Source: Crossiella sp. CA-258035
Lineage (GTDB): Bacteria; Actinomycetota; Actinomycetes; Mycobacteriales; Pseudonocardiaceae
Length of the DNA stretch: 64,000 nt
NCBI RefSeq assembly: GCF_030064675.1
Contig: NZ_CP116413.1
Location: 6,604,001-6,668,000, forward strand
Direction: 5' to 3'
This document shows positions 9,040 through 13,317 of this stretch, piece by piece. Position numbers and translations under genes: made by a program. The notes below the pieces were generated by a model, which worked only from the letters and a program-made list of their open reading frames with translations, had not been told where the DNA came from and did no database searches. How positions within the stretch are numbered: position 1 is the stretch's first letter; each line of letters begins with the position of its first letter.

Positions 9040-10716
9040 ATGACCGAGGTGGGGGCGCTGGCCGACCGGTTGGTCGAGGTGCTGGCGACAGAGGATCCGC
9101 TCAACGACCTGCTCGACGGGCAGCCCGGTTTCCAGGGGCTGCTCCCACAGATCTCCGCGGCCGACCAGGCGCGGACCGCGGCCGCGGCGGCCGATCTTGC
9201 CGCCGCCGCAACGGAACTGACGGTATCCGGGCCGGACGCGGTCACCAGGGACGTCCTGGTGCAGCAGGCCGAGGCGGTCCGGACCCGCGCCGCCACCCGG
9301 CTGGCCGAGCACACCCTCCTCGACCTGATGCACGCGCCCGCGGTGGTCGCGCTCAACCGGCTGCCCTCGGCCCGGCCCGCGACCGCCGAACAGGAGGAGT
9401 TCTTCCTGGCCCGGATGGCCGGGCTCCCTGACTTCCTCGCCCAGGCCGCTGACCGGCACCGCGAGGGCGTGGCCTCCGGCCGCACCCCGGTGGCCCGTTC
9501 CCTGCACACGCTCACCGGGCTGCTCGAGAACCACCTCGCCCGCCCTGACCAAGATCCGCTGGCCCAAGCGCCGCTGACCGGCGACCGCACCACCCGGCGG
9601 GAACGGCTGCTGGCCGAGGAGGTCCGCCCCGCGGTCGCCGCCTACCGGGCCGCGCTCCGCGAGATCACCGGCCGCCCCGACGAGCGACCGGGCCTGTGCT
9701 GGCTGCCCGAGGGCGAGGCGAACTACACCGCGCTGGCCCGCATGCACACCACCACCGAGCGCACCCCAGCCGAGCTGCACGCCGAGGGCCTGCGCCTGCT
9801 CGCGGAGCTGGAGGCGGAGTTCGCGCGGCTGGGCGGGCCGCTGTTCGGGGTGCGCACCGGGGCCGAGGTCAGGGCACGGCTGCGCACCGACCCGGCGCTG
9901 AAGCTGCGGGACGGGGCCGAGCTGCTCGCGCTGTCCCGGGCGGCCATGGACCGGGCCGAGGCGGCCGCGCCGCGCTGGTTCGGCCGGATGCCGGGGCACC
10001 GCTGCGAGCTGCGCGAGACGCCGCCGGACAAGGCGCCCACCGCCTCCACCGCCGCCTACCTGCCGCCGCCGCTGGACGGCTCGCGGCCGGGCATCTACTA
10101 CGCCAACACCTACCGGGTCACCGAGCGGGACCGCTGCGTGACCGAGGCCAACGCCTTCCACGAGGCGGTGCCCGGCCACCACTTCCAGCTGGGCCTGGCC
10201 GCCGAGCTGACCGGCCTGCCCGCGCTGCGCCGGGTGGCCTGGGTGAACGCCTACATGGAGGGCTGGGCGCTCTACTGCGAGCACCTGGCCGAGGAGATGG
10301 GCCTGTACTCCGGCGACCTGATGCGGCTGGGCGCGCTGGCCAACACGGCCATGCGCGCGGCACGGCTGGTGGTGGACACCGGGCTGCACGCCTTCGGCTG
10401 GCCGCGCGACCGGGTGGTGACCTTCCTGCGCGAGCACACCGCGATGACCGAGGTGGAGATCGCCTCGGAGACCGACCGCTACATCGAGACCCCCGGCCAG
10501 GCCCTGTCCTACCTGGTCGGCCGGATGGAGTTCCAGCGGCTGCGGGCCCGCGCCGAGCGGGAGCTGGGCGCGGGCTTCGCCATCCGCGGCTTCCACGACC
10601 TGGTGCTCGGCGGCGGCCCGCTGCCGCTGACCGTGCTGGACCGGGTGGTGGACGACTGGCTGAAGGTCGTGTCTCGCGGGTCTCGCACGCGATCGCCGGG
10701 CCCAGCCCGTCCCTGA
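9040..10716 (+). CDS. DUF885-family hydrolase (putative zinc peptidase)
   Basis: A 558-residue protein of the DUF885 family, thought to be zinc metallohydrolases. The family hallmark HEAVPGHHFQ is present about two-thirds along, followed by VNAYMEGWALYCEHLAEEMG, which supplies the second Glu. No signal peptide is seen, so it is cytoplasmic. I start at ATG 9040 (MTEVGALADRLVEV), preceded by GGGG; the upstream open frame is unlike protein. The last 17 codons (VSRGSRTRS and on) lie inside the 162-bp palindrome and look like an acquired tail; the family-like sequence ends about DDWLKV. Confidence 0.88.
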   Translation: MTEVGALADRLVEVLATEDPLNDLLDGQPGFQGLLPQISAADQARTAAAAADLAAAATELTVSGPDAVTRDVLVQQAEAVRTRAATRLAEHTLLDLMHAPAVVALNRLPSARPATAEQEEFFLARMAGLPDFLAQAADRHREGVASGRTPVARSLHTLTGLLENHLARPDQDPLAQAPLTGDRTTRRERLLAEEVRPAVAAYRAALREITGRPDERPGLCWLPEGEANYTALARMHTTTERTPAELHAEGLRLLAELEAEFARLGGPLFGVRTGAEVRARLRTDPALKLRDGAELLALSRAAMDRAEAAAPRWFGRMPGHRCELRETPPDKAPTASTAAYLPPPLDGSRPGIYYANTYRVTERDRCVTEANAFHEAVPGHHFQLGLAAELTGLPALRRVAWVNAYMEGWALYCEHLAEEMGLYSGDLMRLGALANTAMRAARLVVDTGLHAFGWPRDRVVTFLREHTAMTEVEIASETDRYIETPGQALSYLVGRMEFQRLRARAERELGAGFAIRGFHDLVLGGGPLPLTVLDRVVDDWLKVVSRGSRTRSPGPARP

Positions 10717-10825
10717 CGGCGGCGCCGAGACGACCAAGTACGCCCGGTACGAGGCCGCCTCGACGCCACCGTCAGGAACGACCTGGACTCCGGCGCTCAC
10801 GCACGAGACCCGCGAGACACGACCT
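10664..10825 (-). repeat. 162-bp palindrome; possible structured RNA at tryptophanase 3' end
   Basis: Arms at 10664-10741 and 10747-10825 are inverted copies around a 5-nt loop (GCCCG). The outer 22 bp are identical (AGGTCGTGTCTCGCGGG and on). By hand alignment 64 of 78 aligned positions match, with one single-base bulge. All ten transition differences run the same way (C or A in the left arm, T or G in the right). As minus-strand RNA these become G-U wobbles; as plus-strand RNA they would be A-C mismatches. The right arm starts inside the tryptophanase TAG codon and the left arm overlaps the last DUF885 codons. It may be a terminator, a stabilising 3' element, a small RNA or a remnant inverted-repeat element. 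The palindrome is directly seen; the RNA role is inference. Confidence 0.8.
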
Positions 10826-12191
10826 ACGACCGGGGGGCCAGCCGGCAGTTGAAGTGCCGCAGCAGCGGCGGGTTGTGCGTGAGCCGGTAGCCGGGCACCC
10901 GCTCGGGGTCCTTGGCGATCTCGGCCAGGACCTCGCCCACGTACTCCAGGTGGCTCTGGGTGTAGACCCGGCGCGGGATGGCCAGCCGCACCAGCTCGTA
11001 CGGGGCAGCCTTGGTCAGCTCGTCGTGCTCGTCGAACTCGCCGAGGTAGAGCGAGCCGAGCTCGGCGGCCCGGATGCCGCCGCGCCGGTACAGCTCCAGG
11101 GCCAGCGCGTGCCCGGGGAAGGAGCTGGGTGGCAGGTGGGTGAGCAGGCGGCCGGCGTTGAGGTAGATGGCGTGGATCCCGGCAGGCTGCACGATGGACA
11201 CGCCACCGGCCACGGCCAGCTCGCCGAGGTGGCGGGACTGCTCGGCGCGGGCCCGCAGGTAGTCCGGTTCGGTCACCTCGCGCAGGCCCTGGGCCAGCAT
11301 GTCCAGGTCCCGCCCGGCCAGGCCGCCGTAGGTGCGGAAGCCCTCGGTGGCGATCAGCAGCAGCTCGCAGCGCCCGGCCAGCTCCGGGTCGCGCACCGCG
11401 AGCAGGCCGCCCATGTGCACGATGCCGTCCTTCTTCAGGCTGGCCACGCACCCGTCGGCCAGCGCGAAGGCCTCCCGGGCCACCTCGCGCGGGCTGCGGT
11501 GCTCGTAACCGGGTTCCCGCTGGGTGACCAGCCAGGCGTTCTCGGCGAAGCGGGCCGCGTCCAGGAAGTAGGGCACCCCGTGCGCCCGGCACAGCGCCGC
11601 GGCGGCCTTGAGGTTGGCCATGGACACCGGCTGCCCGCCGCCGCCGTTGTTGGTGATGGTCATGATCACCAGGCCGACCGGGGTGCCGTCGGTGAGCACC
11701 CGCGCCAGGGCGTCCAGGTCGATGTCGCCCTTGAACGGGGCCGGTTCGTCCAGGTCCTTGGCCGCCGGGCCGGGCAGGTCCAGCGCGGTGCAGCCGAGCA
11801 GCTCCACGTTGGCCCTGGTGGTGTCGAAGTGCGTGTTGCTGACGCTGACCTGGCCCGGCTTGAGCAGGGCGGTGAACAGGATCCGCTCGGCCGCGCGGCC
11901 CTGGTGCACCGGCCACAGGTGCGGGTAGCCGGTCAGCTCCTCGACCACCTCCTTGAACCGGAAGAAGGAGCGCGCCCCGGCGTAGGACTCGTCACCCAGC
12001 GCCGCGGCGGCCTGCTGGGCCGCGGACAGCGCGCCGGTGCCGGAGTCGCTGAGCAGGTCGATGGTGACCACGTCGGCGGGCAGGTTGAACTGGTTGTACC
12101 CGGCCTCGGCCAGCGCGGCCTCGCGCTGTTCCGGCGTGGTGATCGGGATCGGCTCCACGACCTTGATCCGGTAGGGCTCCATCAGCGGCAT
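10824..12191 (-). CDS. tnaA: Tryptophanase (L-tryptophan indole-lyase family)
   Basis: A 455-residue PLP enzyme of the tryptophanase/tyrosine phenol-lyase family, cleaving the side chain of Trp (or prenyl-Trp) to indole, pyruvate and ammonia. Family motifs: GDESYAGARSFF (residues 67-77), HQGRAAE (96-102, phosphate), TNNGGGGQPVS (180-190), FLDAARFAENAW (209-220) and SLKKDGIVHMGG (251-262, PLP lysine). Full length is typical. It starts 22 nt after the stop of the tryptophan prenyltransferase on the same strand, so the two form an operon; the true substrate is probably dimethylallyl-tryptophan. The gene ends at the start of the 162-bp palindrome. Confidence 0.92.
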   Translation of the reverse strand: MPLMEPYRIKVVEPIPITTPEQREAALAEAGYNQFNLPADVVTIDLLSDSGTGALSAAQQAAAALGDESYAGARSFFRFKEVVEELTGYPHLWPVHQGRAAERILFTALLKPGQVSVSNTHFDTTRANVELLGCTALDLPGPAAKDLDEPAPFKGDIDLDALARVLTDGTPVGLVIMTITNNGGGGQPVSMANLKAAAALCRAHGVPYFLDAARFAENAWLVTQREPGYEHRSPREVAREAFALADGCVASLKKDGIVHMGGLLAVRDPELAGRCELLLIATEGFRTYGGLAGRDLDMLAQGLREVTEPDYLRARAEQSRHLGELAVAGGVSIVQPAGIHAIYLNAGRLLTHLPPSSFPGHALALELYRRGGIRAAELGSLYLGEFDEHDELTKAAPYELVRLAIPRRVYTQSHLEYVGEVLAEIAKDPERVPGYRLTHNPPLLRHFNCRLAPRS

Positions 12192-12213
12192 ACGGGGTGG
12201 CTCCGCTCTCTCT

Positions 12214-13317
12214 TCAGGATGCGAGGGACTCCGGGCGCGGCGGGGTGACCGCGTAGCTCTCGGCCGAGAGGTACACGGTGAGCCCGGTGTGCGGGCGGCC
12301 CGTGCGCAGGGACAGGTGCGGGATGAGGCCGACGCCCTCGTTGAGCGGGCGGCGGGCCAGCACGGTCAGCGCCCGGTCCAGCAGCGCCCGGTCCAGGCCG
12401 TGCCCGGCCAGCAGCGCGTGCGCCCTGGCCAGCGCGACCTCGTCGTCCTCGGCGTAGTCGCGCACCGGGAGGTAGACGGAGAAGCCGCTGGCCCGGTCGG
12501 TGTCCCCAGCCAGGAAGCTCAGGCTGGAGATCAGCGGCCGCCCGGTGAAGCGGCCCCGGTGGCCGCCGGCGATCGCGGTGAACTCGCGGATCTGCTCCTC
12601 CTCCACCTGCCGGGCCGCGCCCGCCGTGCGCAGCAGCTGGGCCAGGTCGCCGTCGTGGTGGGAGAGGTAGACCTTGACCCTGGGGTCGGGCTGGGTGTGC
12701 AGGTCGATGGAGAAGAAGGAGTAGCGGTCCAGCTCGTCGCCGGGGCGCAGCCGCCGCCGGAGGTTGGGGTAGGCGCCGCCGAAGCCGAGCCGGTCCAGCC
12801 CGGCCTCGACCAGCTCGCCCGCGACGGCCCGGCCGCGGACCTCCGGGTTGAAGTAGATCTTGAACGCCGGGGGCAGGCCGAGGCGCAGCACCACCGACCA
12901 CCACCAGGCGAAACGGCCCTGCGGGTGCTTGGGCAGGAAGAGGTCGGCCACCGCGTCGAAGGCGGCGAGGGAGAAGCCGTAGCGCTCGGCCAGCCGGGGC
13001 AACAGCTCCTGAGCTGCACAAACGTTTGCTTCGATGGACGTGCCCTCGCCGAGGGTTTCCAGCAGCAGGCGCACCGCGGGGCGGCCGGCCCGGTCGACGG
13101 CGAGGGAGAACTCGACCGGGGTGTGGTCGTCGGCGACGTCGGAGGGCCAGGCGGGCGGTTGCCCGATCGGCCGGTCGCCACCGGGTCCGAGCATTTCCCG
13201 CACAAGGTCGGCGTATTCTTCGGCCGCATTTGTGGAATGGGAAAGACCGACCGCCCGGCAGAGCTCGCTGGTTAGTCCGGAAATGTCGTCAGCCAGCGAG
13301 AGCGTTGCCTTGCCCAT
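12214..13317 (-). CDS. ABBA/DMATS-type tryptophan (indole) prenyltransferase
   Basis: A 367-residue soluble aromatic prenyltransferase of the bacterial tryptophan dimethylallyltransferase type (IptA/SCO7467-like family). It should transfer a dimethylallyl group from DMAPP to the indole ring. Seen features: HTPVEFSLAVD with Glu69, the conserved acid that deprotonates indole N-H in this family; FKIYFNPEVRG, RVKVYLSHHD and GFSVYLPVRDY, the Lys/Arg/Tyr strands that line the PT barrel and hold diphosphate; and a final LTVYLSAESY strand. No DDxxD motif, as expected. It is first gene of an operon with tryptophanase. Regiochemistry (C4-C7) cannot be read from sequence. A GTCGT-T-ACGAC dyad lies at 13331-13341. 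Confidence 0.9.
   Translation of the reverse strand: MGKATLSLADDISGLTSELCRAVGLSHSTNAAEEYADLVREMLGPGGDRPIGQPPAWPSDVADDHTPVEFSLAVDRAGRPAVRLLLETLGEGTSIEANVCAAQELLPRLAERYGFSLAAFDAVADLFLPKHPQGRFAWWWSVVLRLGLPPAFKIYFNPEVRGRAVAGELVEAGLDRLGFGGAYPNLRRRLRPGDELDRYSFFSIDLHTQPDPRVKVYLSHHDGDLAQLLRTAGAARQVEEEQIREFTAIAGGHRGRFTGRPLISSLSFLAGDTDRASGFSVYLPVRDYAEDDEVALARAHALLAGHGLDRALLDRALTVLARRPLNEGVGLIPHLSLRTGRPHTGLTVYLSAESYAVTPPRPESLAS

Follow-up and report, generated by a model that had tools for sequence, protein, structure and literature searches.

A palindrome at a tryptophanase stop codon in Crossiella is probably a copy of a mobile actinobacterial hairpin element in which the fold of one strand is kept

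Introduction

In Crossiella sp. CA-258035, the open reading frame of a tryptophanase-like enzyme ends at the edge of a long palindrome whose arms differ in one direction only. A sequence-only reading of the window (the whole stretch of 64,000 nucleotides analysed here) took this polarity as a sign of selection for an RNA hairpin in the tryptophanase/prenyltransferase transcript, and offered a 3'-UTR stability element, a small RNA or a mobile palindromic unit as candidates. The locus thus raises the question of what kind of element this is and what keeps its arms alike. The answer that we consider reasonably likely is that the palindrome is a copy of a mobile family in soil actinobacteria, the sequence of which is free to change while the fold of one strand is kept.

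Results

The palindrome and its setting

Folding confirms a single hairpin with a 5-nt loop over positions 10664-10825 of the window, although the element proper has 160 rather than the 162 bp first recognized, the outermost A and T belonging to the flanking dinucleotides (Table 1). Folding of both strands, which had been proposed as a check, gives -155.9 kcal/mol for RNA of the minus strand and -119 for the plus strand. For neither strand does any of 200 dinucleotide shuffles fold equally well (z -17.99 for the minus, -13.12 for the plus strand). Energies calculated for single-stranded DNA have the same strand order (-85.7 minus, -66.5 plus). In a strand-neutral alignment, the arms of the focal copy (L050) contain 10 G.T and no A.C mismatches in minus-strand terms, in agreement with the ten arm transitions of one polarity originally described. 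The apex defines what we call the R strand, in whose hairpin G.U is retained in preference to A.C.

The hairpin does begin inside the tryptophanase stop codon, with the minus-strand left end of the element contributing to the TAG. Its contribution to the DUF885 gene, previously put at the last 17 codons, comes to 16 whole codons, part of one more and the stop. A tryptophan dimethylallyltransferase-like open reading frame (PF11991) adjoins that of the PF01212 lyase (window 10824-13317, minus strand), and the two possibly form an indole prenylation pair.

Table 1. Coordinates of features at the focal locus, in window positions.
Feature	Position	Strand	Remarks
Mobile hairpin element, 160-bp interior	10665..10824	-	Minus is the R strand; own-genome match place 6614684-6614803
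R-left end, IS5-type terminal repeat GGTCGTGTCTCGCGGGTCTC	10800..10824	-	With TA, 18/22 against the IS of L189 (G003)
R-right end, inverted copy of the terminal repeat	10665..10689	+	From sequence and end comparison
TA flanking the R-left end	10825..10826	.	With the element's first G, forms the TAG stop of the tryptophanase ORF
AA in place of the second TA	10663..10664	.	Focal copy lacks an intact TA duplication
Conserved apex CTCGTACCGGGCGTACTTGG: 2x2 internal loop, GUAC stem, 5-nt loop	10734..10753	-	From fold, apex pattern and copy alignment
Beta-eliminating lyase (tryptophanase-like) ORF, PF01212	10824..12191	-	Ends in TAG (10826-10824) at the element edge
DUF885 ORF, PF05960	8779..10716	+	C-terminal end reads into the element; listed start mechanical

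A dispersed family of near-constant length

The palindrome recurs, as the sequence-only reading had suggested checking. Searches of its own 9.17-Mb genome with blastn returned 11 places at E 0.01 or better (one in two pieces), an apex pattern matched 14 times (reversed control, 0), and a covariance model built from 14 copies found 22 strong places and one weak one. Across 41 genomes, matches at E 0.001 occur in 14, a number that counts the genome of origin and one doubtful case, G016. That genome may not be a true carrier because its matches are weak (E 1.2e-4 only) and one of the two copies read there (L086, L099) folds about equally well on both strands. In 394 genomes drawn evenly from the class, again with the genome of origin counted, E 1e-6 matches are present in at least 14, which is a lower bound since nine candidates were scored per genome; every carrier in this draw belongs to the Crossiella family or to one genus of another family.

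The matches listed (119 stretches) include Streptomyces, Kitasatospora, Pseudonocardia, Lentzea, Actinokineospora, Kibdelosporangium, Kutzneria and Crossiella, and those of Crossiella sp. SN42 (L343, L375, L388) are among the most stable folds of the named matches listed. Two further apex matches, one from Halobaculum (L316) and one from a MAG of the Granulosicoccaceae (L361), appear to be strays, with best folds of -92.4 and -53.1 kcal/mol. Length varies little: once the 13 of 87 elements without clearly delimited ends are left out, 65 of the remaining 74 measure 160-164 bp.

Searches of phage and plasmid collections with blastn found no match to the element. The apex 20-mer is present in two IMG/VR viral contigs (L391, L392).

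Some sites carry partial or related structures. Shorter palindromes in G003 (L173, L181) and in the focal genome (L070) have the same outer arms with the apex missing, which looks like a deletion of the centre. Four short sites in G003 (L170, L179, L188, L192) consist of CTAGGNCGTGTCCTAG, the 10-bp end sequence with TA on both sides, and are possibly excision footprints. The same CTAGGGCGTGTCC ends are also present on a non-palindromic element of 180 bp (L175/L178, G002:C1:6954578-6954757), perhaps a MITE of a different construction.

Mobility and target site

Flanks were prepared for 16 copies in the focal genome, and 14 loci were examined against three genomes of the same genus. The insertion point is empty in at least one of the three at 12 of the 14 loci, while L054 and L056 could not be joined, and the empty site holds a single clean TA at six (L044, L045, L046, L055, L062, L065). 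At the focal locus, proposed earlier as a possible insertion, the element is missing in the same-genus genome G003. The empty site in G003 lacks a TA and the focal element ends in TA and AA, so the TA duplication is not demonstrated at this copy. Two insertions (L067/L252 and L231/L238) are common to different species. Another genome, G299, contains 25 end pairs 148 bp apart; the nine copies read are near-identical, with CTAG on both sides in eight and CTGG on one side in the other.

Among the 74 delimited elements, CTAG is present at the left end in 35 and at the right end in 30, in a setting where this tetranucleotide is depleted (21 in the whole window, whereas dinucleotide counts predict about 71). 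TAG stop codons naturally offer CTAG sites, which accounts for the frequent location of elements at stop codons: many copies lie at CTAG, often at a TAG stop codon, and of the 164 called gene 3' ends that face a member, 93 stop between -25 and +12 nt from an element end. An element that enters the favoured CTAG at a TAG stop restores that stop, since its own first letter is G.

These elements are MITE-like non-autonomous transposable elements. They are short, multi-copy and dispersed, have empty sites and target duplications, and, several copies in the focal genome excepted, have terminal repeats in common with autonomous insertion sequences (ISs). Among the three options first offered for the palindrome, the mobile palindromic unit is the one upheld by the dispersal of the family and by the absence of the element from a relative at 12 of the 14 loci.

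Insertion sequence partners

Two kinds of IS have ends like those of the hairpin elements. In G003, L189 is an IS5-family IS (NCBIfam IS5 above cut-off on both frames, DUF4096 and DDE) that starts CTA-GGTCGTGTCCTGCGGATCTT, and the end match given for the focal copy in Table 1 is equalled by L046. The single IS630-type match in the focal genome, L143, starts CTA-GTGTCCTGAGTCGTTAGTTC; the ends of L057, L059 and L060 agree with it at 19/22, but with IS5 ends at only 9 or 10. As a yardstick, a score of 15 is reached at no position in the window by the IS630 end and at 3 of 63,978 by the IS5 end, the focal element lying within the scan. In G299, the end of a 1,732-bp IS630-family IS (L441) matches the hairpin end of that genome at 26/28. 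L441 also carries a GNAT acetyltransferase passenger gene beside its transposase. Other copies in the focal genome, including L044, L049, L053 and L055, match neither the IS630 nor the IS5 end well. Since a single model and a common apex extend across members with either end, the ends of two unrelated transposase families thus occur within one family.

The hairpin elements share terminal repeats, a CTAG target and TA duplication with these IS630 (L143, L441) and IS5 (L189) elements, but differ from them in lacking a transposase. Conversely, 28 IS or end loci searched for the hairpin gave no strong match; weak ones were seen at L204 (26.6 bits, E 0.00067), L205 (22.2, E 0.0083) and L188 (18.1, E 0.089). 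No IS5 element with matching ends was found among the IS5-type loci of the focal genome, where L197 (differing ends) and L204 (ends not found) were discarded as partners. IS630 presence does not track the hairpins either, as the carriers G001 and G002 yielded no IS630 transposase at E 1e-5.

Covariation and strand polarity

The copies, for which a covariation check had been proposed, still fold although their arms diverge strongly. In an alignment from the focal genome, 29 of 49 consensus pairs show two-sided change and 93.9% of cells pair. None of 500 shuffles reaches the observed covariation by any measure, and slid registers pair at 36-48%, the structure having been taken from the same alignment. 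Compensatory changes thus exceed what column composition provides, as for structured RNAs.

The polarity of the focal arms extends throughout the family. In 87 elements from 13 genomes, G.T outnumbers A.C by 830 to 112, counts that include flank noise because boundary calling ran too long for some elements (188 bp for L050). The polarity is weaker in G003 (142 to 47) and G022 (15 to 10), and single copies with the opposite polarity exist (L259, 3 to 6). It tracks the apex in both genome orientations. After eight contig-edge matches were left out, the R strand folds better in 109 of the 112 named matches listed, the exceptions being L282, L316 and L334. An ungapped register breaks down more than about 15 pairs away from the apex, and the named arms were therefore aligned. 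Clean arms remain for 79 of the 112 named matches listed (33 with less than 70% Watson-Crick pairs were dropped; the stray L316 passed this filter and was kept), with G.T 563 to A.C 96, G.G 150 to C.C 31, G.A 145 to C.T 46 and A.A 27 to T.T 27. Adding back the 33 dropped arms gives G.T 795 to A.C 154 among the matches listed. L316 was removed from the ungapped-register, gene-orientation and sister-pair analyses.

Recent changes were followed in 82 sister pairs that are disjoint, rather than phylogenetically independent, with mismatches scored against a Watson-Crick pair on the apex-defined strand. Among 4,757 base pairs, 700 changed, 184 of them by two-sided Watson-Crick change. G.T exceeds A.C by 295 to 28 (binomial p 2e-57) and G.G exceeds C.C by 49 to 6 (p 2e-9), whereas G.A and C.T stand at 26 to 18 (p 0.29). 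The claim that the polarity is not random thus holds for the family as a whole. Divided by part in 69 elements, G.T to A.C is 171/14 in the outer, 249/6 in the middle and 243/14 in the inner part. The inner part also has more C.T (92) than G.A (18) because the apex keeps a pyrimidine internal loop. Changes at the two insertions shared between species comprise three two-sided, six between Watson-Crick and G.T, one to C.A and one from G.G to G.T.

Discussion

Probable movement by insertion sequences and selection on the hairpin

We think it fairly probable that these MITE-like elements of about 160 bp are moved by IS630/IS5 transposases and carry a hairpin under selection on one strand, most likely as RNA. 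Terminal repeats common to IS630 and IS5 ISs would let the transposases of either move the element in trans. The element would enter at TA, preferably within CTAG, and duplicate the TA, as suggested by the end matches, the empty sites and the duplication observed at several copies; where the site is a TAG stop codon, its first G would restore the stop. Inside the ends, members of either type, recognized by a single model, carry a hairpin module with a conserved apex. Compensatory changes, together with G.U that keep pairs and the rarity of A.C, point to selection on the structure of one strand.

The molecule under selection is most likely R-strand RNA rather than single-stranded DNA, a preference that we infer from the dominance of G.T, the excess of G.G and the lack of a clear recent excess of G.A over C.T. 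A strong G.T and G.G bias without a clear G.A bias is a better fit to RNA than to DNA energetics. The apex may be read by a host factor common to the carrier actinobacteria, and the folded RNA may help the element to persist or spread. The best reading is thus a MITE whose hairpin module is maintained as RNA or, less likely, as single-stranded DNA. A more speculative extension, which we put forward tentatively, is that the hairpin RNA module is a hyperparasite. Its terminal repeats would have passed between two unrelated transposase superfamilies, the IS630/Tc1-mariner type and the IS5 type, which share the CTAG/TA target, while the apex and one-strand structure, read by an actinomycete RNA-binding factor or nuclease, would keep it spreading.

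DNA energies give the same strand preference, and the selected molecule could accordingly be R-strand single-stranded DNA, forming a hairpin during replication or element movement like integron attC sites or IS200/REP hairpins. Excesses of G.G and G.A over their complements, as found in the clean named arms listed, fit DNA mismatch stability. This account sits poorly with the sister pairs, where recent G.A does not clearly exceed C.T whereas G.T leads tenfold, and with the TA duplication and terminal repeats, which speak for a cut-and-paste mechanism of DDE type acting on duplex DNA, one for which no folded single strand is known. Selection of DNA is on balance unlikely. It is more doubtful still that the fold is under no selection, with template switching keeping the arms alike and strand-biased mutation producing G.T over A.C. 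Two-sided changes even at a shared insertion (the three at L067/L252) and the arm recombination or slippage evident in the apex-less copies L070, L173 and L181 would suit such a process. Arm copying alone, however, comes without strand polarity, and a C to T bias accounts neither for the G.G excess between sister pairs nor for the conservation of the apex across genera or the nearly constant length. The polarity also follows the apex in both genome orientations and without gene bias.

A role in cis within the tryptophanase/prenyltransferase transcript, as a 3'-UTR stabilizer, terminator or small RNA, would explain a hairpin exactly at a stop codon, and the many facing gene 3' ends close to an element end could be read in the same way. 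The stop-codon position is nevertheless a consequence of the CTAG target, G003 lacks the element at this locus, and no T run lies beside the hairpin. Around 173 members, 14 of which lie inside a called gene, genes point in 78 times from the R-sense side and 86 times from the other, according to a simple GC-frame caller. In the absence of a neighbour orientation, the polarity belongs to the element and not to the tryptophanase mRNA, and we regard a cis-acting role as highly improbable. Selection on one strand's hairpin, the core of the original proposal, is thus retained as the best reading, whereas its link to the transcript is not, and a 3'-UTR feature private to that transcript is contradicted by the dispersal of the element and by a polarity independent of neighbouring genes.

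Relation to known elements

Correia/NEMIS, RUP and ERIC are bacterial MITEs with hairpin RNA that are short, non-coding and multi-copy with inverted ends; NEMIS RNA stem-loops are cut by RNase III, ERIC RNA affects mRNA stability, and RUP inserts at TA and has ends like those of IS630-Spn1 (PMC2229807). The focal family resembles them in these general features, but in this family a single long hairpin of near-constant length takes up the entire element, its wobbles are strand-polar and its apex is conserved, copies differ widely in sequence, and two IS end types occur. We found no element with such a strand-polar hairpin and two IS end types in the available part of that review (PMC2229807). 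Among covarying single-stem repeats already described, the nearest is MRSC-65-2, compared by description only, which likewise has a single long stem, strong covariation and dozens of copies per genome, sometimes lies near a transposase gene, and may act as RNA or as DNA (PMC11109978). It differs in its more than 20,000 representatives from diverse phyla and its UYCCGG repeat (PMC11109978). On the transposase side, an IS630-family IS duplicates TA (PMC2170065, which cites a paper whose title gives the CTAG preference of IS630), and IS427-group ISs mostly make 2-bp duplications and have two overlapping frames (PMC3281130). The palindromes of REP/RAYT systems (PMC3733652, PMC2817692) are also dispersed and extragenic with a tetranucleotide (GTAG or CGTC) at the foot, but REPs measure 20-40 bp, and a length of 160 bp, TA duplication and IS ends led us to reject this identity. 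No published description of the hairpin family was found in the literature searched, outside of which lay subscription journals and supplements.

MITEs are usually regarded as DNA that needs only its ends. In the present family, the evolution of the interior resembles that of a structured RNA, with near-constant length and strict strand polarity, in several actinobacterial genera and with two IS end types. The family therefore offers a testable case for a function of the interior in a bacterial MITE, and for the ability of one module to serve unrelated transposases. Elements at stop codons also alter gene ends in antibiotic-producing genera.

Comparison with Rfam gave no family at gathering score for window positions 10400-11100 (best 23.2 bits against 51) and none for the hairpins in 10 named loci. 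One named locus, L278, has an ASpks match above the gathering score at 563-637, about 2 kb from the hairpin and unrelated to it.
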